Of a stretch of DNA of 64,000 nt, positions 4,964 to 25,617 are shown one piece after another (position 1 is the stretch's first letter; each line of letters opens with the position of its first letter). Source of the DNA: Sphingobacterium alkalisoli (GTDB lineage: Bacteria > Bacteroidota > Bacteroidia > Sphingobacteriales > Sphingobacteriaceae); contig NZ_SUKA01000008.1 of assembly GCF_005049105.1 (NCBI RefSeq), positions 62,001 through 126,000 of the forward strand. Direction: 5' to 3'. The notes below the pieces were generated by a model. That model was not told where the DNA came from. It saw nothing but the letters and a program-made list of their open reading frames with translations, and ran no database searches. Made by a program: the position numbers and the translations under genes.

Positions 4964-6678
4964 TGGCCTCATTCATAAAGAATTTCAAGATCCAGCATTT
5001 TTTACTTTTCTGGCTTTTCATAAACTTGATTCAGGGCACATTTATGGAACTCCATGTAGACGAAGCCTATTATTGGATATATAATAAATTTCTGGATTGG
5101 GGCTATTATGACCATCCTCCGATGGTAGCCGTTTTTATAAAAGTCGGAACTTTTTTTACGCAGTCAGCGCTAGGGGTACGAATCATCAGCATCTTTAGCA
5201 ATGTATGTGCTATTTATTTTCTTTGGCAGATTGTAAAACCCTATACCGAGAATGTTTGGCTTTTCGCCTGTCTCTATTGTAGTTTCGTCATTTTCCACGT
5301 ATATGGCTTTATTAATTCCCCAGATAGTCCACTCCTTTTCTTCGCCATCCTTTATTTCTATTTTTTAAAGGGATACCTGAAAGAACAACATTTCAACATC
5401 AAGACTGTCCTATGTCTCTCACTAGTCATTACAGGTATGTTGTACAGCAAGTATCACGGAATTCTACTTTTGTTCTTCACGATTCTTGCAGATTGGAAAC
5501 TACTAAAAAGATCTTCCTTTTGGTGTATTGTACTATTATCATTGGCGCTATATCTGCCGCATATATTATGGCAAATAAAGAATGATTACCCATCTATCCA
5601 ATTCCACGTATTTGAAAGAAACGCCCGGGAATATAAGATATCATTCACATTGGACTATCTACTGAGCCTTATTCTTGTGGTGGGGCCATTATCCGGTTGG
5701 TATTTGTATTATCGGTTTTTTAGCTTAAAAAATGAAGACACCTTTTTGCGTATCTTAAAATTTGTTTTTTGGGGATTTTTAGTTTTCTTTTTCCTTTCGT
5801 CATTCAAAAGTCGCGTACAGGCACAATGGGTTTTATTGGCCTATATCCCTTTATTTATAGTAGGTTATATTGCTTTAGCAAGATATCAGATTCCCAAATG
5901 GTTTTATACATTATTATATATCACTGTTGCACTTATTATGGTTATTCGATTAGCCCTTGTCGTTCCTATTCCAGCCCTACAAAAGATAAAGGCTGTCAAT
6001 GTCTATTGGGGACATGCTGATCTGGCAAGCCAAATAAAAGAAAAAGCCAAAGGCAGATACCTTATTTTTGACAATGGGTTTCAGGATGCCTCATCCTATA
6101 ATTTTTATACCAATACCTTGACAGCCTTGTCATATAATCCACGTACCTACCGTAAAACACAGTACGATTATTGGCCGATAGAAGACAGTCTTCGCAACAA
6201 AAACACCTATTTCGTTCGTCCCTATTCGTTTGAAACACTAGAACAAGATACTATAGAATCCAAGTTACGTGGCACTTGGTATGGCATCAACATCGACACG
6301 GTTCGTTTATATCAAAAGGTAGAAATTTCATGCGACAATCTTCCTGATACCATACAACAAGGCAAGAAATATCATATCAGGCTTTCGATCACTAACCCGT
6401 ACGAAGAGGAAATCACTTTCGATAATACGGGACGTAAATGGCCTCTATTTTTCGAATATGGATACACGAAGTATGTCTATGAATCTGGAGAATTTTTCGA
6501 GTTTGACGAAGGTTATCATGTTTTAAAAATTGCACCGAAGCAAACAAAACATATTCAGGTAACCATCACTGCCCCTTCTGAATTGGGCAAAAGATTAATT
6601 ATGTTTTCCCTGCGAACCGACCCTTTTATTGGTCCGCGCAACAGTAAAAAATATCCAATATATGTTACTGAAAATTAA
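4963..6678 (+). CDS. GT39/ArnT-like membrane glycosyltransferase
   Basis: A 571-residue polytopic protein of the dolichyl-phosphate-mannose/ArnT-like GT-C fold. HVDEAYYW near residue 31 carries the conserved Asp-Glu (D33, E34) expected in the first periplasmic loop of the catalytic site, and is followed by WGYYDHPPMVA, strongly typical of bacterial GT39 proteins. About ten membrane segments occupy residues 10-340. The last ~140 residues (from about 430) look like a soluble beta-rich periplasmic domain. It likely transfers a sugar from a polyprenyl phosphate donor to an envelope acceptor, working with the GtrA protein upstream. The next gene starts inside its 3' end. Confidence 0.85.
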   Translation: MASFIKNFKIQHFLLFWLFINLIQGTFMELHVDEAYYWIYNKFLDWGYYDHPPMVAVFIKVGTFFTQSALGVRIISIFSNVCAIYFLWQIVKPYTENVWLFACLYCSFVIFHVYGFINSPDSPLLFFAILYFYFLKGYLKEQHFNIKTVLCLSLVITGMLYSKYHGILLLFFTILADWKLLKRSSFWCIVLLSLALYLPHILWQIKNDYPSIQFHVFERNAREYKISFTLDYLLSLILVVGPLSGWYLYYRFFSLKNEDTFLRILKFVFWGFLVFFFLSSFKSRVQAQWVLLAYIPLFIVGYIALARYQIPKWFYTLLYITVALIMVIRLALVVPIPALQKIKAVNVYWGHADLASQIKEKAKGRYLIFDNGFQDASSYNFYTNTLTALSYNPRTYRKTQYDYWPIEDSLRNKNTYFVRPYSFETLEQDTIESKLRGTWYGINIDTVRLYQKVEISCDNLPDTIQQGKKYHIRLSITNPYEEEITFDNTGRKWPLFFEYGYTKYVYESGEFFEFDEGYHVLKIAPKQTKHIQVTITAPSELGKRLIMFSLRTDPFIGPRNSKKYPIYVTEN

Positions 6679-7672
6679 AATTTTAGCTTTAGCAATATGT
6701 TTGTGTGCCTATGAGCTTGTCCATGCACAGCAAATAGAAGGACAAGTTGATTTCCATGGTTTTGCGGACAATCGCGAATATTCTAACTCAGACAGGTATC
6801 CGCAAACCATTTTTGGAACCAGAGTCACACCCGAGATTGGTCTGTTTGTGGACAGCACCCATCGCATACGCCTAGGGGTTAGTTATTTACATGAATTCGG
6901 AACCAAGAATATTACGAACCCTGTCCGTCCAGTCGCCTATTACAATTACGATAATAATGGATTCGACTTCAAGATCGGGATGTTTCCCCGACATGAATAC
7001 CTCGACGAATATCCCAAAGCTATTTTGAGCGATACTATTGGGTATTATCAGCCCAACATTGAAGGTATGCTGCTCAAATATAAAAACGAATATTTTCATC
7101 AACAGATTTGGATAGATTGGAACAGTCGTCAAACGAGAACAGATCGCGAACAATTCATGGTTGGTATATCGGGAAATGTTAATTTAAACAAGACATTTTA
7201 CATCAAAAATTTTGCTACTTTATGGCACAATGCAGGGCCTATGGTCGATGTGCCAGACCCCAATGATCATATACGGGACAATGGAGCAGCATCGTTACAT
7301 ATCGGAGCCGATTTAAGTGAACGAGGGTGGTTAGACTCCATCAACATAAATATTGGAGGTATTATCAACTATGATCGTCTTCGTAATGTATACGAGTGGC
7401 AGTTTCCAAAGGGATTGTTGAGTGAAATCTACCTGGAACACTACAAATTCTTTATTCGGAACACCTTCTATACCGGCGAATCATTAGCCATTCCCTATGG
7501 AGATGTCTTCTATACATCCAAACAATATGACCGTCTAGATATTGGCTGGATTCCGCTTCGGTACAAAAATCTGGAAGGACGATTTATAGCAGGGTTTCAT
7601 TTTTCTGAAGGCGTAGTGGATAGTCAACAACAGTTTATTTTACGCTATACGATAGGACATCTTTTTAATTGA
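6662..7672 (+). CDS. Predicted outer-membrane beta-barrel protein
   Basis: A 336-residue protein. I chose the ATG at 6662 because it begins a clear signal peptide (MLLKIKILALAICLCAYE then HAQ cleavage); an upstream start at 6629 would place ten extra residues before the signal. The mature part is rich in alternating aromatic and polar strands (YYNYDNNGFDFKIGMFPR, LEGRFIAGFHF) and ends in IGHLFN, compatible with a porin-like barrel. No family is recognised. It overlaps the GT39 gene by 17 bases and is therefore probably in the same operon. Confidence 0.7.
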   Translation: MLLKIKILALAICLCAYELVHAQQIEGQVDFHGFADNREYSNSDRYPQTIFGTRVTPEIGLFVDSTHRIRLGVSYLHEFGTKNITNPVRPVAYYNYDNNGFDFKIGMFPRHEYLDEYPKAILSDTIGYYQPNIEGMLLKYKNEYFHQQIWIDWNSRQTRTDREQFMVGISGNVNLNKTFYIKNFATLWHNAGPMVDVPDPNDHIRDNGAASLHIGADLSERGWLDSININIGGIINYDRLRNVYEWQFPKGLLSEIYLEHYKFFIRNTFYTGESLAIPYGDVFYTSKQYDRLDIGWIPLRYKNLEGRFIAGFHFSEGVVDSQQQFILRYTIGHLFN

Positions 7673-16833: not shown

Positions 16834-18294
16834 TTAATAGCCAGGGTTTTGATTTTCTTGACCGATCGCCGGATTATTGTTGATTTCATTTTCCGGAATG
16901 GGGTATAGTAGCCGCTCGTCAATTAACGTTTTGCCGATTGCAGCAAACGCCTCTTTGGCTTTTGCTGTACGTTTCAAATCCCACCAACGGCGCCGCTCGA
17001 TCAAGAATTCATACGCCCGCTCCCGCATGACTGCATCGATGAAGGCTTCCTCTCCCATTCCTGCCGGATAGTCCACTGACGAAGCCACGCTTGGATTATA
17101 ACCATAAGCCCTTCGTTTGATCATATTCAACCGTTCCAATGCCAATGTGGAAGGGCCGCTCTCGGCACGGCAGGTAGCTTCAGCATAGAACAGTAAGGCT
17201 TCGGCATAGCGATAAATCGGCACGCTGTACGTCCGGAGCCCACTGTTATCCGTGACAAATTTTTTAAATAGCACCGGAGTGGTTGCAGGAAGGGATACCC
17301 ATTCGCCAGCTGCATTTTGGATTTCTGTATACAAGTTGAAGGGTTTACGTAAGTCGTTGTCATCCCATTCCTCGCCGATCATGGAGTTCGTATTGGGTAA
17401 CCAAGCAAAATATCCCGTGCTGCTGTAGTTATAAGGCAGGTTATTTCCCATGTGTAGGAAGTTGGTGATTTCCGATTGCGATATGTCTGAATGATGCACA
17501 GACATAATGTCCTCCGAACTCGTATTCGATGCAAAAATATCGTAGAAATCATCCGGCTCCTGTACAGACACCAGCGTATACTGCCCCGTTGTAATTACCT
17601 CTTCAGCTTTGGCTGCCGCAGCTTCCCAGTCACCAATAGTCAGGTATACGTGTGCCAACAACATCTTTGCCGCCGACTGCGAAGCTTGGCCGGTCTCCTG
17701 ACCAACGGTTGGGAGGAGATCTAATTCTGCAACCTCAGCGTCGGCAATGATCAGATCGTAAACTTCATTTTCCGGTCGACGTGGTGATTCCAAATCTGAT
17801 AAATCCGTACTCTCTGAGGTTTTGATCGGAACAGCACCCCAACCCCGCACCAACTCAAAGTAAGCAAGCGCGCGAAGAAAGTGAGCCTCTGCCAAAATCC
17901 GAGCACGTGCACTCTCGCTGATGTCGGTAATCGAGGGCACATTAGCTAAAACGGCGTTAGCACGATTAATGCTTTGGTACAACCTGAACCAATGGTTTGC
18001 TGTACGCCCTATATTCTGCTGGTCCAGCAATTGATCCATATTTGAAATGGGTGCTTGTGATCCTCGGCCCAGTAGCAGGTCGCTATGGAGTTCGGATAAG
18101 ATGAAATTATCGATGCCATAAAACTCTTTACCCACGGTACTATATGCACCATTCAATGCACCTTGCGCATCTGCTTCATTGCGGTAATAGTTGTTTCTCG
18201 ATACGAAATCCATCGGCACCTCTTCCAACATATCTTGGCAAGCAGTCAACCATACACCGATCCCCACAATCACTAATAAACCTATCTTTTTCAT
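16834..18294 (-). CDS. SusD/RagB family outer-membrane lipoprotein
   Basis: A 486-residue glycan-binding lipoprotein that forms the lid of a SusC transporter. The N-terminus has a signal peptide with lipobox LTAC (Cys about 19). Family features include the NNYYRNEADAQGALNGAYS opening, RALAYFELVRGWGAVP, the TPR-like helical core, and the C-terminal ERRRWWDLKRT and LYPIPENEINNNP segments. It is in the usual position directly downstream of susC, but the 145-base gap between them contains a large stem-loop. Ligand not inferable. Confidence 0.93.
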   Translation of the reverse strand: MKKIGLLVIVGIGVWLTACQDMLEEVPMDFVSRNNYYRNEADAQGALNGAYSTVGKEFYGIDNFILSELHSDLLLGRGSQAPISNMDQLLDQQNIGRTANHWFRLYQSINRANAVLANVPSITDISESARARILAEAHFLRALAYFELVRGWGAVPIKTSESTDLSDLESPRRPENEVYDLIIADAEVAELDLLPTVGQETGQASQSAAKMLLAHVYLTIGDWEAAAAKAEEVITTGQYTLVSVQEPDDFYDIFASNTSSEDIMSVHHSDISQSEITNFLHMGNNLPYNYSSTGYFAWLPNTNSMIGEEWDDNDLRKPFNLYTEIQNAAGEWVSLPATTPVLFKKFVTDNSGLRTYSVPIYRYAEALLFYAEATCRAESGPSTLALERLNMIKRRAYGYNPSVASSVDYPAGMGEEAFIDAVMRERAYEFLIERRRWWDLKRTAKAKEAFAAIGKTLIDERLLYPIPENEINNNPAIGQENQNPGY

Positions 18295-18439: not shown

Positions 18440-21400
18440 TTAGAATGTTAACCTAAATCCCAACACATAGTTTTTGGCGTTTGGATAGCTGCTTTGATCG
18501 TGTCCCATTCGCAGCAGATTACCTATATTTCTATCTCTCGTATTTCGCGAGTCCTCACCTCGCGTATTGACCTCGGGATCCAAGCCAGTGTACTTTGTGA
18601 AGGTAAGTAGGTTAGTGCCCGATACGTAGATCCGCAACGCATTGCACCACACCATGCCCCAATTGGCCACCGGAAGATCATATCCGAGATTGACCGATTT
18701 CAAGCGGAGGTAACGGCCGTCTTCGATAAACCGGTCGGAAATATCAAAATTGGAAGCCGAACTGATTCTTGGATACTTGGCATTCGGATCTGGATCCTCC
18801 TCCGTCCAATAGTTGCCCATTAAGTCCTGAAATTGGTTACTTCCGCGTTGAAAGGAATTCAAATGTGTACCGTTTGTCGCGTTGAATACTTGATTACCCT
18901 GCACACCTTCCAGAAAAACAGTGAGATTCACTCCTTTGTAAGACACGGTGGAATTCAAACTATAGATCAAATCTGGCGTGGGATTACCTAGAATAACGCG
19001 ATCTTGCGCATTCACCGCTCCATCCCCGTTAACGTCCTTATACTTGATATATCCGTTCTCGTTCAATCCGTCTTCGAGGTAACCAAAAAGACTGCCCAGT
19101 GGCTCACCTTCACGTGCAATGTTCGTACTTGACCACACAGCGGCTAACCCAGCGCTGTAGATGTCGCTACCTCCCGCCAATGAAACCACTTCGTTTCGGT
19201 TGGATGACGCCATCGCCGCGAGATTCCATTTCCACTCCCCTGTTAAGACGTTAACATTTACACCAACTTCCATTCCTTGGTTGCTGATCTCGCCAATGTT
19301 CTGGAATATGGAACCGAAACCTACGGATGGCGGCAACGGTACAGATGCGAGCAGATCGGTCGTGTGTTTCCAATAATAATCCGCAGTTACATTCAAGCGG
19401 TTGTCCCAAATCGTGAGGTCGAATCCGATATCGGTCTGCTGGGTGGTTTCCCATTTTAAATCCCGATTTGAAATTCCCGATGGGCTGTACCCGATCACTA
19501 CTTCATTATTACCATAGATGGTACGCGCAATCCCCATCCGGTCGAGCGACTGGTATGGACTCAGCGCAGTGTTACCCGTTACGCCATAGCTTGCGCGGAC
19601 TTTTAAGTCATTGACGAAGCCGATGTCCCGCATAAAGGGTTCTTCGAACAGTCGCCAGGCGAAGGCACCAGAGGGGAACATCGCCCATCTATTGTTCGCT
19701 CCAAAGCGGGAGGAACCATCGGCCCGAATACTTGCCGTAAACAGGTACTTGTCTGCCAATGTATAGTTGACCCTTCCCAAATAGGAGGCCAAAGCCCATT
19801 CCGATATGCCCGAAGTTGGCGGATTGACTGTTTCCATGGCCGAAAGGTCAAAATTGCGGGTGGTATTGCCAGGCAGTCCACTTCCATCGATCCGGAAATC
19901 GCGATTTCGGTCCGTTTGATAGGTAAATCCACCCAATAGCGTCAGCCGGTGTATATCATTAAAGTTTTTGGAATACGTCAGTGTATTTTCATTCAAAAAA
20001 GAACTCCGGTAATAGGTTTGCTGACGGGCATAACCCCGATCTACCTCAAAGATAATGGGACGGAACTGATCCTCCAACGTATAGGCGTATTCCAAACCAA
20101 CCATCGTTCTGAACGTTAGATTTTCGCTAAGTTTTACATCCAGGCTGGCATTGCCGAGACCGGTATTACCGAGTGACTTTGTCTGGTCCTGCGCGAAAAT
20201 CATGGGGTTTTGCATATCCGAAGAGCCAAAGCTATAAGCCCGCTCGATTTGGGCGGGAAGCCCATCTTCGTCATATATAGATAGTGTAGGCGGTGCCGAT
20301 GCAGCCGCAGATAATATAGAGCCACCGCCCCTAAAGCCATTGTTTACCGGAATGGCCAGCTGCTGTCTCCGTGAAAGGTTTAGATTCACATTCAACCGCA
20401 ACCAGTCTTTCACGTCGTGTCCAAGATTTAACCGTACCGAACCTCGTTTCACTCCGGTATTGATCAAAATACCTTCTTGATCATAATAGTTTCCAGATAG
20501 CGAGTATTGCGTCTTTTCCGATGCGCCCGAAAAAGTAAGGGTATGGTCTTGGATATGCGCCGTGCGCAACACGGCATCCTGCCAATCGGTGCCCGGATCC
20601 TGCACTTCATCAAGATCGAAATACGGATCCTGCCCTCCATTTCTCAACCATTCATTGGCGATGATGGCATAGTCGCGGGCGTTCAACAAATCATATTTTT
20701 TTGTCGCCTCCTGTAAACCATAGAAGCTGTTCAGCTCTACACGGCTGGGCGTTCCTTTTTTTCCTTTTTTTGAAGTGATGATCACTACACCATTGGCTCC
20801 GCGAGCCCCATATATTGCCGTGGCGGAAGCATCTTTCAAAATATCAATGGATTCGATATCCGCTGGATTGAGAAAATTCAAGTCGCCGGTTAGCGGGAAT
20901 CCATCTACAACATACAATGGTTGGTTGTCGCCAATCATCGAATTTCCACCCCGGACACGAACTTCTATCCGCCCACCCGGCTGCCCCGAATTCTGTGTCA
21001 CCTGCACACCCGTGGCACGTCCTTTTAACGCTTGCTCCATGTTATAAACTGGTACGGCCTGCAGATCTTCCGATTTGATTTGTGCTACGGATCCCGTAAG
21101 GTCGGACTTGCGAATGGTACCATATCCCACAACAACCACTTCTTCCAGATCGCTCACTACGGCTTGCATCGTCACATCAAGACGACGACTTATTCCGTTG
21201 AAATCGCGGTGTTCCTGCGGTTTATATCCCACTATAGTAAAAACTAAAGACCCCTGATTTGGAACCGCAACACTGTACCCTCCCCTTTCATCTGTCGTGA
21301 CAGCGGTGGACGTACCCTTCACGGTCACCGATACGCCTACCAGGGGCTTACCTCGATCATCCACGACGTGGCCCGACACCATCTCCTGCGGCTGGTTTTC

Positions 21401-21718
21401 ATCAGAAATCGACGACAAGGTTTTCTTCCTCGATACCAGCACCCTTTTTCCACGGATTTGGTAGGTAAGCGGCTGGTCGGTAAAACAATACTGCAAGATC
21501 TCAACTAACGGAGCTTGATTAAAACTCAGGCTCACTGGACGAGTGTCCTTCAAATCATCGGTCAGGTAAAGAAAATGATAGCCTGTCTGCTTGCGCAATT
21601 CAGCAAAAACCGTTTTCAACGGAATTTGCTTAGCTGTAATACTCACTTTCTGGGCATACACCTCAGCTCCGGCGCGGACAGTGGTCATCAGTACGATAGC
21701 GAATATGATTTTAGTCAT
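18440..21718 (-). CDS. SusC/RagA TonB-dependent transporter with STN signalling domain
   Basis: A 1092-residue outer-membrane transporter. The ATG at 21718 is chosen because it starts the signal peptide (MTKIIFAIVLMTTVRAGAEV); the frame extends 36 codons upstream through a non-signal sequence. Domains in order: signal peptide, STN/secretin-N domain (about 30-90, IPLKTVFAELRKQTGYHFLYL), carboxypeptidase-D-like domain (about 112-190), TonB plug (GYGTIRKSDLTGSV, PLYVVDGFP), and a 22-strand barrel ending in YVLGFRLTF. The STN domain is the element that contacts FecR-type anti-sigma factors, and exactly such a gene lies upstream. The transporter therefore probably both imports and senses its ligand. 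Confidence 0.95.
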   Translation of the reverse strand: MTKIIFAIVLMTTVRAGAEVYAQKVSITAKQIPLKTVFAELRKQTGYHFLYLTDDLKDTRPVSLSFNQAPLVEILQYCFTDQPLTYQIRGKRVLVSRKKTLSSISDENQPQEMVSGHVVDDRGKPLVGVSVTVKGTSTAVTTDERGGYSVAVPNQGSLVFTIVGYKPQEHRDFNGISRRLDVTMQAVVSDLEEVVVVGYGTIRKSDLTGSVAQIKSEDLQAVPVYNMEQALKGRATGVQVTQNSGQPGGRIEVRVRGGNSMIGDNQPLYVVDGFPLTGDLNFLNPADIESIDILKDASATAIYGARGANGVVIITSKKGKKGTPSRVELNSFYGLQEATKKYDLLNARDYAIIANEWLRNGGQDPYFDLDEVQDPGTDWQDAVLRTAHIQDHTLTFSGASEKTQYSLSGNYYDQEGILINTGVKRGSVRLNLGHDVKDWLRLNVNLNLSRRQQLAIPVNNGFRGGGSILSAAASAPPTLSIYDEDGLPAQIERAYSFGSSDMQNPMIFAQDQTKSLGNTGLGNASLDVKLSENLTFRTMVGLEYAYTLEDQFRPIIFEVDRGYARQQTYYRSSFLNENTLTYSKNFNDIHRLTLLGGFTYQTDRNRDFRIDGSGLPGNTTRNFDLSAMETVNPPTSGISEWALASYLGRVNYTLADKYLFTASIRADGSSRFGANNRWAMFPSGAFAWRLFEEPFMRDIGFVNDLKVRASYGVTGNTALSPYQSLDRMGIARTIYGNNEVVIGYSPSGISNRDLKWETTQQTDIGFDLTIWDNRLNVTADYYWKHTTDLLASVPLPPSVGFGSIFQNIGEISNQGMEVGVNVNVLTGEWKWNLAAMASSNRNEVVSLAGGSDIYSAGLAAVWSSTNIAREGEPLGSLFGYLEDGLNENGYIKYKDVNGDGAVNAQDRVILGNPTPDLIYSLNSTVSYKGVNLTVFLEGVQGNQVFNATNGTHLNSFQRGSNQFQDLMGNYWTEEDPDPNAKYPRISSASNFDISDRFIEDGRYLRLKSVNLGYDLPVANWGMVWCNALRIYVSGTNLLTFTKYTGLDPEVNTRGEDSRNTRDRNIGNLLRMGHDQSSYPNAKNYVLGFRLTF

Positions 21719-21769
21719 AATCAAAAGCTTAATGAGGTCGCGATAATACGTCGCGGGTTTATAAGTTCT

Positions 21770-21800
21770 GTGCGTTTTGCAATTTTTGCAAATTCCGCAC
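21770..21800. promoter_or_regulatory. Inverted repeat in the susC 5' region
   Basis: GTGCG and CGCAC flank a nested TTTGCAA/TTGCAAA pair, giving a hairpin of about 12 bp with an internal loop. It lies between the conserved block at 21841 and the susC start. Being symmetric it could act as RNA on the minus strand or as a protein site. Confidence 0.45.
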
Positions 21801-21835
21801 GTTATTGCAATACAAATTGCATACATTTGTTATAC

Positions 21836-21972
21836 AGGTTAAATGATTATTCTGTTAAATCTATCATTGTCAACTGCCAATTATATATTGTCAATTGATC
21901 ATTGGATTAGCCTGTTTGCGGCATAAATTACCGCGCCATCCGGAAGTGTTAGCCGCACTTCCGGCTTTTTTT
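21836..21972 (+). ncRNA. Candidate antisense small RNA upstream of susC (copy A)
   Basis: A TACATTTG box (21822-21829, TAnnTTTG) on the plus strand precedes a region that ends in a clear intrinsic terminator: stem CCGGAAGTG/CACTTCCGG (21940-21948/21956-21964), loop TTAGCCG, then seven T (21966-21972). The predicted ~135-nt RNA runs opposite to susC. A homologous unit lies before the GH16-like gene at 23617-23744. Between copies the stem has one compensatory change (G-C to A-T) and the loop is identical. Bacteroides carry cis-antisense RNAs of the DonS type at this position in PULs; this resembles them in layout, not shown in sequence. Confidence 0.5.
21841..21872 (-). promoter_or_regulatory. 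Conserved 32-bp block upstream of susC (candidate ECF promoter)
   Basis: The minus strand reads TGACAATGATA then one variable base then ATTTAACAGAATAATCATTT. The same block, with one difference, is at 23622-23653 before the GH16-like gene. The distance to the start codon is similar in both cases (about 123 and 111 bases). That conservation and spacing fit a shared promoter for the locus-encoded ECF sigma factor. It is also the 5' part of the candidate antisense RNA unit, so the two readings compete. Confidence 0.5.
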
Positions 21973-22101
21973 GGGCTTATGCCCTCACAGGGAATCCATT
22001 ATTGGGGATCTATTCAAGTCTCCATATTTACACCTCCTTCATTTGTGTTCAATTTTGATATTTCCGACTTCCGTCGGGTCGCATTCAATTATAGCTCCTA
22101 A

Positions 22102-23511
22102 TTACTGTACGTACCATCCGGAACCGGGAGCATAATACTGTAGACCATACCATAGTAGATCCGAAGTTCCTTCGTTATAGGGGTTTCCAGCATCTATCTT
22201 CACGGCCACATTTATTATAGGGTAGAAAGCCCAATCTGTATTGCCATCAGCCCTATCAAGCATATTTCTATGCTGCAAGGTCTCTTTGCCATCAACGAAA
22301 TGCGTAATCCAGTCATCTTCAATAATACAGGCGTAATCGTGGGGCTCAGCATTCAGATCTATGTCCAGTTCGAAACCGGGGACACGGTCCAATTCACTTT
22401 TCAGACCATTTACCATATCCCGCACATTAGAGCCATGCACACCGATATGTTGCGCAGAACTTGTCGAGCGCGGTGTGTAGGCTGCGCCATAAGCTCCATT
22501 GAAGCTCTCGAAGAAGTCGATCTCCGGCGGCCACTGGCTAGCACCCGTACTGAGCACACTCCCTACCGCCCAAAAAGCAGACCAGGCTCCGCGACGGCTA
22601 GGGGTCTGTATCTGCGCGCGATAAATACCACGGCGATACTTCCATTCATCTAATTTCGAACCTTGCAATACAGACGCCTGAAAGGGAAATGTTTTGCCGC
22701 TAAAGACAACGGGCTCTTCAAACTTCACCGTATGCAGCCGAACGAATGGTCGTCCTTCGCTGTCCACCTCACGGGTCTGAGGGTTCACCGCATGGTCCGG
22801 AAACGCTTCTACGTTTGTGTACAGGCCAGTCTCACCGTTGCTAGCCTGAGAATAACCATGAGATAGGCGGGAGCGCCATACTGGGTTGCCGTCGGCATCG
22901 AAACCGCTATCCGACCATTCAATGGCGCCCATATCCAAATCCATGGATGGGGTTACCCCATCCGCGTGCAATACAAGGGGATCACGGTGGAAGGGCATTT
23001 CGGCCGGAAGTTCATTGACTGCGCCCTCCTGAATCTGGAAAAAACAAGCAACAGGACCGGCTGTCCCTTCGCCGGGAAAAGTTATCTTGAATTGATCGCC
23101 AGGGGTGTGCCTCGGATTGATAATATCAACCGTAATCCAAAGGTCAGCATCGTCACCTGGACGCCAATATTGATATTTGAAAGGAGTGGATATGTCTCGA
23201 TTGACATTGAATCCTTTTGCTCCGCCGGTACTTGTATTAACCTGTACATAAGCAGTGCTCATAATCGCACCGGCTAGTGTCAACCGGACGTGAGCCTTGG
23301 TCGCGCCTGGAGGGATGCCAATTGGTTCTTCCAACGTGGTCATTGGATCAAGATCAATACCGTTGATTGACAAGCGTCGATCCGCTATTACAGGTATATC
23401 CTCCAACGGAATCTCCGGATTTGGATTCACAATATGCTCGCTACAACTTACCATCGAGCTGATCACCAACACCGTGATAACCAACCCGATATTATGCCTA
23501 TTTTTTTTCAT
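22102..23511 (-). CDS. GH16-like glycoside hydrolase lipoprotein
   Basis: A 469-residue lipoprotein: the signal peptide ends in a lipobox-like VSC (Cys about 23). Residues about 25-180 form an N-terminal beta-sandwich-like region. The C-terminal ~290 residues resemble a GH16 (laminarinase/agarase-type) domain. The catalytic motif EIDFFE is at 330-335, so Glu330 would be nucleophile and Glu335 acid/base, and GAWSAFWAVG precedes it as in the family. It probably cleaves a beta-linked glucan or galactan at the cell surface and supplies ligands to the neighbouring SusCD. Overall similarity to characterised GH16 enzymes is limited outside the motif region. Confidence 0.75.
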   Translation of the reverse strand: MKKNRHNIGLVITVLVISSMVSCSEHIVNPNPEIPLEDIPVIADRRLSINGIDLDPMTTLEEPIGIPPGATKAHVRLTLAGAIMSTAYVQVNTSTGGAKGFNVNRDISTPFKYQYWRPGDDADLWITVDIINPRHTPGDQFKITFPGEGTAGPVACFFQIQEGAVNELPAEMPFHRDPLVLHADGVTPSMDLDMGAIEWSDSGFDADGNPVWRSRLSHGYSQASNGETGLYTNVEAFPDHAVNPQTREVDSEGRPFVRLHTVKFEEPVVFSGKTFPFQASVLQGSKLDEWKYRRGIYRAQIQTPSRRGAWSAFWAVGSVLSTGASQWPPEIDFFESFNGAYGAAYTPRSTSSAQHIGVHGSNVRDMVNGLKSELDRVPGFELDIDLNAEPHDYACIIEDDWITHFVDGKETLQHRNMLDRADGNTDWAFYPIINVAVKIDAGNPYNEGTSDLLWYGLQYYAPGSGWYVQ

Positions 23512-23537
23512 CTGGATATAATTTGTTTTTTAACTGC

Positions 23538-23594
23538 GATGAAGCTATCAGATTTATTCATTTCCCACGTGAAAGAATAAATCATGATGGTTTC
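23538..23594 (-). promoter_or_regulatory. Leader stem-loop of the GH16-like gene
   Basis: GATGAAGCTATCAGATTTAT followed by TC (from 23538) pairs with GAATAAATCATGATGGTTTC (23575-23594) over about 19 bp with one bulge and two wobble pairs. The loop contains TTTC/GAAA. It ends about 27 bases before the start codon. Its arms match the outer stem in the susC-susD gap (18319-18430), so it is a repeated regulatory structure of this locus. Confidence 0.6.
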
Positions 23595-23616
23595 GTAGCA
23601 ATAACTATTACAGTTC

Positions 23617-23744
23617 TTATAAAATGATTATTCTGTTAAATTTATCATTGTCAGTTGCACGTATCAACTAACCATTGGATTAGCCTTTTTGCAGCACCAT
23701 GTCCGCTCTGGCCGAAAGCGTTAGCCGCACTTTCGGTTTTTTTT
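23617..23744 (+). ncRNA. Candidate antisense small RNA upstream of the GH16-like gene (copy B)
   Basis: Homologous to copy A at 21836-21972. Shared pieces in order are the 32-bp block (23622-23653), CCATTGGATTAGCCT (from 23672) and a terminator with stem CCGAAAGCG/CACTTTCGG (23712-23720/23728-23736), loop TTAGCCG and eight T (23737-23744). Compared with copy A the stem has one compensatory pair and one C-A mismatch. The promoter for this copy is less clear (TACAGTTC at 23609-23616). It points away from the GH16-like gene. Confidence 0.45.
23622..23653 (-). promoter_or_regulatory. Conserved 32-bp block upstream of the GH16-like gene (candidate ECF promoter)
   Basis: Second copy of the block described at 21841-21872; only one base differs across 32. 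It lies 111 bases before the GH16-like start. Having two copies in front of the two transcription units downstream of sigma and anti-sigma genes supports a common regulator. Confidence 0.5.
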
Positions 23745-23768
23745 GCTAATCTGGGGTAAAGATTCAGG

Positions 23769-24905
23769 TTACCATATCATCCTAACCTCCTTTCCGTTAC
23801 GTTCAAATTTAACCTTGCCGACCAATTCCAAGTCGGCCAACAGTTCATCGATTCCTGCGGTGATCGGAAAACTTCCTCCGAAGCGCTTTTTAGGGACATT
23901 CGCTTCGATGACTATCCGTACATCATACCACCTCGACACACTACGCATGACCGAAATCACATCCATATCATCAAACAAAAAGTAGCCGTTTTTCCAAGCC
24001 ATCGCCTGCTCCAAGTTGCTCTGTCTCCTCATGAGGTTCCCATCTGCCGAGGAAACGGCCTCAAAACCTGGAGTCAACGAAAGCGTCTTGCCTTGATGGT
24101 GCACATCTACACCGCCTTCCAATAGCGTGGTACGCACCTCATTATCTGAAGCATATGCAGAGACCGTGAAATGCGTACCCGTCACCATGATTTCCCGGCC
24201 TTGCGCCATCACCTTGAACGGCTTTGATCGGTCGGGCATTACTTCAAAATAGGCCTCCCCATCTAATATTACCTTACGCTCACTCTCCGTAAATGCTACA
24301 GGATAAGTCAGCGTTGTTGCTGTATTCATCCATACATTTGTTCCGTCGGGTAAGACCAGCTTAAATTGCTTACCATTGGGAACATGGAGGGTGTTTTGTG
24401 CTGGCGCCTCCAACGCAATCTCCGACTTGGAATCCGATGGGTTCTCGTAAACCAGCTCGCCGTCAAGTTTCCTGATATCGACACCTCCACTATGTCTCAC
24501 CAGTCCGTGTTGTAAGCCATCTAACCCAACTACCGAACCGTCGGCCAACGTGAGCCGGACACCATCGGACGGATAAGAAGCTGTTTCTGAAATTACTAAA
24601 GATTTTTCCTTAACGTCTTTCTTCCCACCGACAGACCAGAGCAGTCCAAAAACTGCTAGTAAAGAAGCTGCAACACCCCCATACCATAACCTCATAGACC
24701 GGGAAGGCTTGCTTGCATAACGCCGCTTATCAATCGCTTGCCTAATCCGAATCCCCATTAACACTCTAGCCTCTTCACTTTCCCACGACCAATTATCAAC
24801 AATGGGATCACGAAGAACCATTTCTTCCAGAAAGCGCTTTTCCGCTTTGGTACACGTGCCATCGGCATACCGATGCAATAATTTTCGAAATTCTTCTCGC
24901 TGCAT
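23769..24905 (-). CDS. FecR family anti-sigma factor
   Basis: A 378-residue inner-membrane protein. The N-terminal cytoplasmic part (about 1-65, EEFRKLLHRYADGTCTKAE) would hold the sigma factor. One membrane segment lies at about 70-92 (LWYGGVAASLLAVFGLLWSV). The periplasmic part holds the FecR domain (LVLPDGTNVWMNTATTLTYP, GEAYFEV) and a DUF4974 C-terminus (MDVISVMRSVSRWYDV) that contacts the STN domain of the transporter. It lies 121 bases after the sigma gene and upstream of the STN-carrying SusC, so all three parts of the signalling chain are encoded together. Confidence 0.94.
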   Translation of the reverse strand: MQREEFRKLLHRYADGTCTKAEKRFLEEMVLRDPIVDNWSWESEEARVLMGIRIRQAIDKRRYASKPSRSMRLWYGGVAASLLAVFGLLWSVGGKKDVKEKSLVISETASYPSDGVRLTLADGSVVGLDGLQHGLVRHSGGVDIRKLDGELVYENPSDSKSEIALEAPAQNTLHVPNGKQFKLVLPDGTNVWMNTATTLTYPVAFTESERKVILDGEAYFEVMPDRSKPFKVMAQGREIMVTGTHFTVSAYASDNEVRTTLLEGGVDVHHQGKTLSLTPGFEAVSSADGNLMRRQSNLEQAMAWKNGYFLFDDMDVISVMRSVSRWYDVRIVIEANVPKKRFGGSFPITAGIDELLADLELVGKVKFERNGKEVRMIW

Positions 24906-25026: not shown

Positions 25027-25617
25027 TTAACTAAAGTAATTAATGATGAGTATTAAGATGAGGTATGAAATGTAATCCTCATCGAGTCTGAGGCGTAGGT
25101 GTTTCAGGGATTTATTGATTTGCTTTTTTACCGTCTGGTCCGAAATCTCCAGCCGTTCGGCGATTTCCTTATAAGACAGGTGTTCTTTACGGCTTAGTAC
25201 AAATACCTCACGCATCCGCTCCGGGAGTTTATCAACCTCGGCATCAATGATGTCCGACAATTCCCGAGTGTCTATTTCCGCCAACATACTTTCATCAGCT
25301 TCCCAATAATGATCAACGAGTCGACGTTCGATATCTCCATGTTTCACTTGCTCGCGAAAGCGCTTGAAAGCCAAATTTCTAGCAATGACAAACAAGTAAG
25401 ATTTTATGGATTTGATATTTTCCAATTTACCTCGCATCTCCCAGAAGGCTATAAATGTTTCTTGGACGATATCGGCGACGTCATTTTCATCCGGTAAAAT
25501 ACGGACGACATACCGAAATAGGCGTTCCCAATACGCATCGTAAATAGCAGAAAAAGATGACTCCTCTTCTGCTCCTAAAATCCGGATATGATGTGTATTT
25601 TCACTTTTGGATCCCAT
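25027..25617 (-). CDS. ECF-type RNA polymerase sigma factor
   Basis: A 196-residue sigma-70-family factor of the extracytoplasmic-function type. Region 2 is visible (FVIARNLAFKRFREQ; DIVQETFIAFWEMR) and region 4 has a helix-turn-helix (LSYKEIAERLEISDQTVKKQ). The C-terminal 12 residues are unusually hydrophobic (YLILILIINYFS). With the FecR protein next to it, it should be inactive until the SusC/STN signal arrives, and its likely targets are the two conserved 32-bp blocks at 21841 and 23622. Confidence 0.95.
   Translation of the reverse strand: MGSKSENTHHIRILGAEEESSFSAIYDAYWERLFRYVVRILPDENDVADIVQETFIAFWEMRGKLENIKSIKSYLFVIARNLAFKRFREQVKHGDIERRLVDHYWEADESMLAEIDTRELSDIIDAEVDKLPERMREVFVLSRKEHLSYKEIAERLEISDQTVKKQINKSLKHLRLRLDEDYISYLILILIINYFS

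Follow-up and report, generated by a model that had tools for sequence, protein, structure and literature searches.

Upstream of two minus-strand genes of Sphingobacterium alkalisoli, a susC homologue and a GH16-like gene, stand two related units that read in the opposite direction and end in a hairpin and a T-run, which raises the question of what these units are and what, if anything, they do to the genes that they face. The window, by which we mean the whole stretch of 64,000 nucleotides that was analysed, contains at this point an ECF sigma factor gene (25027..25617; Pfam Sigma70_r2 and r4), fecR, which encodes the anti-sigma factor (23769..24905; FecR 65 bits, FecR_C 55 bits), the GH16-like gene (22102..23511; Glyco_hydro_16 23.3 bits with a cut-off of 22), the susC homologue, which carries an STN domain and is of the signal-transducing type (18440..21826; STN, CarbopepD_reg_2 and Plug), and a susD homologue (16834..18294; SusD_RagB and SusD-like_3), all on the minus strand. 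The GH16-like gene lies between fecR and susC and its product is, judged from the N-terminus, probably a lipoprotein. According to Pfam this is a locus of the ECF sigma/anti-sigma kind, with sigma factor, FecR and STN-SusC all present, and the gene content suggests that these three components control it. The two plus-strand units occupy the intergenic gaps, copy B that between fecR and the GH16-like gene and copy A that between the GH16-like gene and susC.

The first ATG of susC is located at 21826-21824 on the minus strand. From 21718 to 21826 the susC ORF has a 36-residue extension (MYAICIAITCG...) ahead of the likely signal peptide, and charged extensions that start at the antisense promoter box described below were also seen in many FecR-linked susC ORFs of S. 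alkalisoli; because similar extensions occur in so many of these ORFs, the stretch may be translated. Ahead of the GH16 start, S. alkalisoli and S. pedocola have approximately 100 extra bp next to copy B (23512-23607) that are absent from the other orthologues read, and the GH16 start codon of other orthologues (CATAGC on the plus strand) corresponds to CGTAGC at 23594 in S. alkalisoli.

An earlier note on this DNA had described, and correctly placed, two homologous plus-strand units that each end with a hairpin and a T-run, and we confirmed both. Copy A (21836..21972, plus strand) corresponds to a predicted antisense RNA of approximately 137 nt and was complete in six genomes, with its 3′ part in a seventh; the 5′ end is placed approximately 7 nt past a putative −7 box and the 3′ end is set at the T-run. 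The box, TACATTTG (21822..21829, plus strand; consensus TAnnTTTG), overlaps the first ATG of susC. The intrinsic terminator of copy A (21940..21972, plus strand; −15.6 kcal/mol) consists of a 9 bp hairpin, with CCGGAAGTG at 21940-21948, the loop TTAGCCG at 21949-21955 and CACTTCCGG at 21956-21964, followed by a C and then by T7 up to 21972. Copy B (23608..23745, plus strand), the homologous antisense unit ahead of the GH16 gene, has no TAnnTTTG box and a weakened hairpin, the arms of which lie at 23712-23720 and 23728-23736 around a loop identical to that of copy A (23721-23727), with T8 at 23737-23744. The two copies align with 77% identity over 133 nt, and no third copy at this level of similarity was found in the genome (E of 1e-20 for the pair, 0.23 for the next match). 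They have in common an identical 20-nt block, AAATGATTATTCTGTTAAAT (21842..21861, strand unassigned), which may be a segment of the RNA or, read on the minus strand, may belong to a promoter that both copies share. The view that neither terminator has a plus-strand gene to end also held: the plus-strand ORFs listed nearby are all antisense to minus-strand genes, and on our reading of the ORF list none is a plausible gene ending at the terminators. A search of the window against Rfam at gathering score returned a tRNA only, and the minus strand of copy A gave a match to SNORA1 far below cut-off, which was taken as chance.

Orthologous loci were found in four genomes by DNA search and in named records by protein search. 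The whole locus is present in Sphingobacterium olei, S. pedocola, S. arenae, S. phlebotomi and Parapedobacter tibetensis; two Pedobacter strains have the GH16 gene and copy B only, to which one of the two adds the 3′ part of A. In these two strains, Pedobacter sp. ok626 and ISL-64 (5850-7410), the GH16 protein is 86–87% identical and the surrounding genes are unrelated; the gene is adjoined by copy B and, by eye, by a remnant of the fecR end, and in ISL-64 by the 3′ part of copy A as well. The GH16 gene seems to have moved as a cassette with its edges in or near the two copies.

The two copies have fared differently in these relatives. The hairpin of copy A is identical in all seven orthologous copies (−15.6 kcal/mol), and both TACATTTG and AGGTTA are kept in each of the six complete ones; the flanks of copy A are as conserved as copy A itself, and its middle is variable. 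All eight hairpins of copy B are weaker, at −9.3, −9.3, −3.8, −7.5, −7.5, −4.8, −2.3 and −2.0 kcal/mol, and the aligned region of copy B contains neither TAnnTTTG (0/8 copies) nor AGGTTA. With one extra pair at the foot, the S. alkalisoli copy B reaches −11.3 kcal/mol, a narrow pass of the −11 kcal/mol criterion used below. The earlier note had the two stems differing by one compensatory base pair. Such a pair exists here (G-C in A, A-T in B), but a second pair is broken, T-A having become C.A. The compensated pair is A-T in the five Sphingobacterium-type B copies and an A.C mismatch in Parapedobacter and the two Pedobacter strains, while the T-A pair beside the innermost pair of A is C.A in all eight B copies; one pair is compensated, yet copy B is weakened overall. 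The covariation score of the A/B stem was matched by 2 of 500 shuffles and surpassed by two of six slid versions; because slid versions score higher and the score rests on one pair, we treat this covariation as weak evidence. We do not claim a candidate internal fold in which the 5′ AGGTTA of copy A would pair with TAGCCT, and GCGG with CCGC: it is kept in almost all A copies but not in B, and shows no covariation.

The arrangement had been presented as a feature of this locus, and a survey of the S. alkalisoli genome showed instead that it recurs genome-wide. We counted as a terminator a single hairpin of −11 kcal/mol or lower followed by a T-tail, with dinucleotide shuffles as the control. 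There are 45 FecR matches in the genome, 44 of which were used; the one left out (L094, G000:C12:886874-887146) has an in-frame stop and no next ORF of 200 aa. The stop is a TAG within the FecR domain, and the locus is perhaps broken. An antisense terminator was present in 33 of the 37 gaps of at least 60 nt between fecR and the next gene, copy B being counted as one of the positives, and was missing from the other four; the shuffles predict 1.15. Not one of these 37 gaps contained a sense terminator. The seven gaps shorter than 60 nt had no terminator, giving 33/44 over all lengths. Other tandem gaps of 60–300 nt within 400 kb of the genome held antisense terminators in 5 and sense terminators in 9 of 63 cases.

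TonB receptors without FecR nearby had an antisense terminator in only 2/42 cases. These receptors came from a set of 50, of which 30 were the top-scoring Plug matches with a locus and 20 were chosen among the other 113; seven with FecR upstream were excluded, three of the resulting 43 scored, and the window susC, which scored via copy A, was then omitted. A fecR gene more than approximately 0.8 kb upstream of a receptor would escape detection in this comparison. The window susC looks FecR-linked because it scores among the receptors, though the GH16 gene parts it from fecR. Stem sequences of the terminators vary between junctions. The apical loops of the antisense terminators have 54% G+C, compared with 24% for gene-end terminators of the same genome (33 loops each), as if G+C-rich loops were retained for loop pairing or for a binding protein. 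We do not claim a loop motif for the family, as the pattern concerned (6/33 versus 0/38) was chosen after looking.

A promoter-like box accompanies many of these terminators at the other end of the gap. The −7 box consensus of Bacteroidota is given as TAnnTTTG in the relevant passages of PMC9723704, and this sequence lies antisense over the start codon in 16 of the 37 FecR gaps and at 2 of 287 control gene starts; the corresponding figures for CAAATGTA are 8/37 and 0/287. The exact TAnnTTTG is missing over the start codon in 21/37 junctions, and it was found antisense at the starts of two of the 42 FecR-less receptors. The register of the ATG shifts (−3, −7, −8) while the box sequence stays the same, which argues for a DNA element and not a translation signal. 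We saw no −33 promoter element upstream of the box. When a start 7 nt past the box and an end 8 nt past the stem are assumed, the predicted RNAs measure 63–124 nt at 17 of the 18 junctions that have both box and terminator, and 191 nt at the remaining one. A GGTTAA-like motif often follows close behind the antisense −7 box in FecR-susC gaps, e.g. AGGTTAAA in copy A, and may be part of the antisense start or of a sense signal (TTAACC); TTAACC occurs 8–30 nt upstream of the ATG in 6/37 FecR gaps and 3/287 controls.

Similar junctions were found in other genomes, where the FecR loci were the best-scoring per genome or hand-picked and do not form a random sample. In 29 genomes of the same family, the best FecR locus of each yielded 26 gaps of at least 60 nt, of which 22 had an antisense terminator, none had a sense terminator and 19 had a start codon overlain by the box; shuffles gave 1.05 antisense terminators. 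In G256, a genome from a different family of the class, 20 FecR loci were read and gave 13/19 antisense, no sense terminator and 12/19 with the box; the Rfam model Bacteroides-1 had no match in G256. The other members of the class were mixed (antisense 2/3 and 6/13, with one sense terminator per group). With the limits of −11 kcal/mol or lower and gaps of at least 60 nt, four genomes of class and genus (G165, G169, G124 and G004) had antisense terminators in 18/24 and sense terminators in 3/24 cases, three class genomes (G181, G161 and G177) had antisense terminators in 2/3, both also with a sense terminator, and genomes of other classes had 2/11 antisense and 1/11 sense, the next gene there often being, by eye, no SusC.

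Searches that started from the two copies themselves led to the same kind of junction. A covariance model built from 15 A and B sequences, given no helix but that of the terminator and blind to neighbouring genes, gave weak matches at an E of 0.01 or lower in 28 of the 251 family genomes. Ten of the 34 places matched were A or B of orthologous loci; 23 of the other 24 came with a locus, and all 23 were antisense, flanked by opposite-strand ORFs that match the FecR profile on the 3′ side and the SusC profile on the 5′ side, although the two profiles cross-match in some ORFs and the 23 include many close relatives (approximately 11 groups by eye). The earlier note had named a lack of stem conservation beyond the two copies as grounds for refutation, and the covariance search did not refute it. 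When 149 relatives were searched with the DNA of copy A, 15 loci other than the orthologous one were read, eight of which are, as judged from the ORFs, antisense between FecR-like and SusC-like ORFs. The other seven fall outside such junctions, are mostly AT-rich and CAATTGACAATTG-like, and were put down to chance.

The sequence signals of copy A, their conservation in orthologous loci and the association of such signals with FecR-linked receptors lead us to a reading that we consider probable as a whole: copy A would be the gene of a DonS-type cis-antisense RNA that brakes susCD, and copy B a decaying duplicate of it. The DonS-type antisense RNA proposed by the earlier note thus fits copy A well, whereas the idea of two equivalent RNAs does not suit a copy B that lacks the box and has the weaker hairpin. 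By analogy with DonS, and from the anatomy of the junction, we would expect a housekeeping-sigma promoter, with its −7 box over the susC start codon, to start an antisense transcript approximately 10 nt upstream of that codon; the transcript would head away through the susC leader and promoter region and stop at the intrinsic terminator before the upstream gene. While FecR holds the ECF sigma factor, the RNA would restrain susCD locally, either because it pairs with the susC leader, whether made from the ECF promoter or by read-through from sigma-fecR, or because the overlapping promoters interfere, or both, two modes that the present data do not separate. In the presence of substrate, STN-SusC would release the sigma factor through FecR, and sense transcription would override the brake. 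The probable origin of copy B is a duplication of the fecR-susC gap around the inserted GH16 gene, in which case the duplicated sense block would place GH16 under the same sigma factor while the antisense signals of copy B decay.

Extended to several families of the class, the same reading would make ECF/FecR-controlled susC genes with an antisense −7 box that shares start-codon bases, and a terminator by the fecR stop, carriers of an inherited, built-in brake that could hardly be lost with the start codon left intact and is no peculiarity of Bacteroides; we hold this wider claim to be about evenly balanced. Repression need not be universal, because the PUL antisense RNAs of B. thetaiotaomicron include positively correlated pairs (passages of PMC10994844).

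Several observations could also be read in other ways. If the antisense terminator served only to keep stray transcripts that leave the AT-rich promoter region of susC out of fecR and the sigma factor gene, the short RNA being a functionless by-product, both its site beside the fecR stop and the freedom of the stem sequence to vary between junctions would be accounted for, and many antisense starts are considered spurious (passages of PMC7366714). We nevertheless think this unlikely, since insulation alone explains neither why a TAnnTTTG box is tied to the start codon nor why terminators are scarce at FecR-less receptors, and since DonS has been shown to repress its PUL (passages of PMC11697453). 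The conservation of copy A is no argument on either side here, because its flanks are equally conserved and its middle is variable.

The earlier note in its full form had A and B as two working antisense RNAs, each acting also on the target of the other. The identity of the 20-nt block and of the loop speaks for it, as do the persistence of copy B in eight genomes and rough duplex energies of −99.9 for A with the full GH16 leader and −87.4 for B with the susC leader, far beyond those with 43 other leaders (medians −37 and −33). When the leaders were cut after the shared block, however, these energies fell to −24.4 and −13.6 (also rough, and for leaders that are shorter as well), and the block may be no more than a sense promoter that a single sigma factor uses. 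Whether it is a promoter or an RNA segment decides the matter of cross-pairing. For cross-action to be conceivable even on paper, both mRNAs would have to start upstream of the block; with a copy B that lacks the promoter box in the aligned region in 8/8 cases and has a hairpin of only −9.3 to −2.0 kcal/mol, we regard two cross-acting RNAs as quite improbable. Lower still is the standing of a sense-strand element, in which the hairpin would serve the minus-strand mRNA, either in its leader or by stabilising its 3′ end, and A and B would be homologous because they share an ECF promoter region. Read in the sense direction, the A/B block does precede both start codons, and copy B is retained beside GH16 in Pedobacter without adjoining sigma factor, FecR or SusC, but 33 gaps have the T-run at the antisense end of the hairpin and no gap has it at the sense end, and the direction of the −7 box is antisense as well, which makes this very improbable.

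The existing descriptions of antisense RNAs at polysaccharide loci concern gut Bacteroides, and repression has been shown for one of these RNAs. If copy A and its counterparts encode brakes of the kind we favour, the same control would be part of the majority of FecR-linked uptake loci whose gap is long enough, both in Sphingobacteriaceae and in one or more other families. It would be readable from sequence alone, the S. alkalisoli genome having approximately 30 predicted RNAs, each with a promoter, an end point and a target, and the role of such RNAs could be approached by comparing loci with and without them.

DonS loci are of the sigma/anti-sigma type, which is a defining feature, and the locus described here likewise has an ECF sigma factor and an anti-sigma factor. 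Copy A further resembles the DonS type in lying on the opposite strand, just 5′ of a susC homologue, with an intrinsic terminator of its own. In passages from the literature, DonS and PUL antisense RNAs are described for 15 PULs in B. fragilis, with 32 antisense RNAs in B. thetaiotaomicron (PMC7366714, PMC11697453, PMC9723704, PMC10861873, PMC10994844); B. thetaiotaomicron transcribes antisense RNAs from this position, and in B. fragilis DonS was shown to repress its PUL (PMC7366714, PMC10994844, PMC11697453). The DonS-type RNAs measure 78–128 nt in the same kind of passage (PMC7366714), a range that includes the predicted RNAs of 11 of the 18 S. alkalisoli junctions, six being shorter and one longer; copy A, with ends predicted from its terminator and −7 box and with no −33 box seen, would come to approximately 137 nt. 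PMC12632263 contains no occurrence of DonS, antisense or sRNA. Among the literature matches listed, in their titles, abstract starts and passages, none described the arrangement outside Bacteroides, which is no proof of absence, and none of those listed reported such RNAs in Sphingobacteriaceae, a box that overlies the start codon or a scarcity of the signals at receptors without FecR.

Another likeness is to FopS and GibS, trans-acting Bacteroides paralogues with a shared 5′ seed that, according to passages of PMC11697453, act near susC start codons, as small RNAs would here; the difference is that the antisense units at other S. alkalisoli junctions are unlike copy A at the level of DNA search. 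FopS is stated to have been deposited in Rfam (same passages), and positions 21700-23800, searched up to an E of 1 against Rfam release 15, which may or may not include the FopS model, matched only a snoRNA model far below its cut-off; no Rfam family matched copies A or B. Ordinary terminators at gene 3′ ends in the same genome have a like hairpin and T-run, and the two copies differ from them in having no gene to end. Set against the DonS type itself, the present case belongs to Sphingobacteriaceae and not to Bacteroides and is predicted from sequence signals; its −7 box overlaps the susC start codon, a feature recorded on the S. alkalisoli side of the comparison, and, unlike the DonS type, it has a second, apparently decaying copy before an inserted GH16 gene and not before susC. 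By position and anatomy, copy A is a predicted member of the DonS type.
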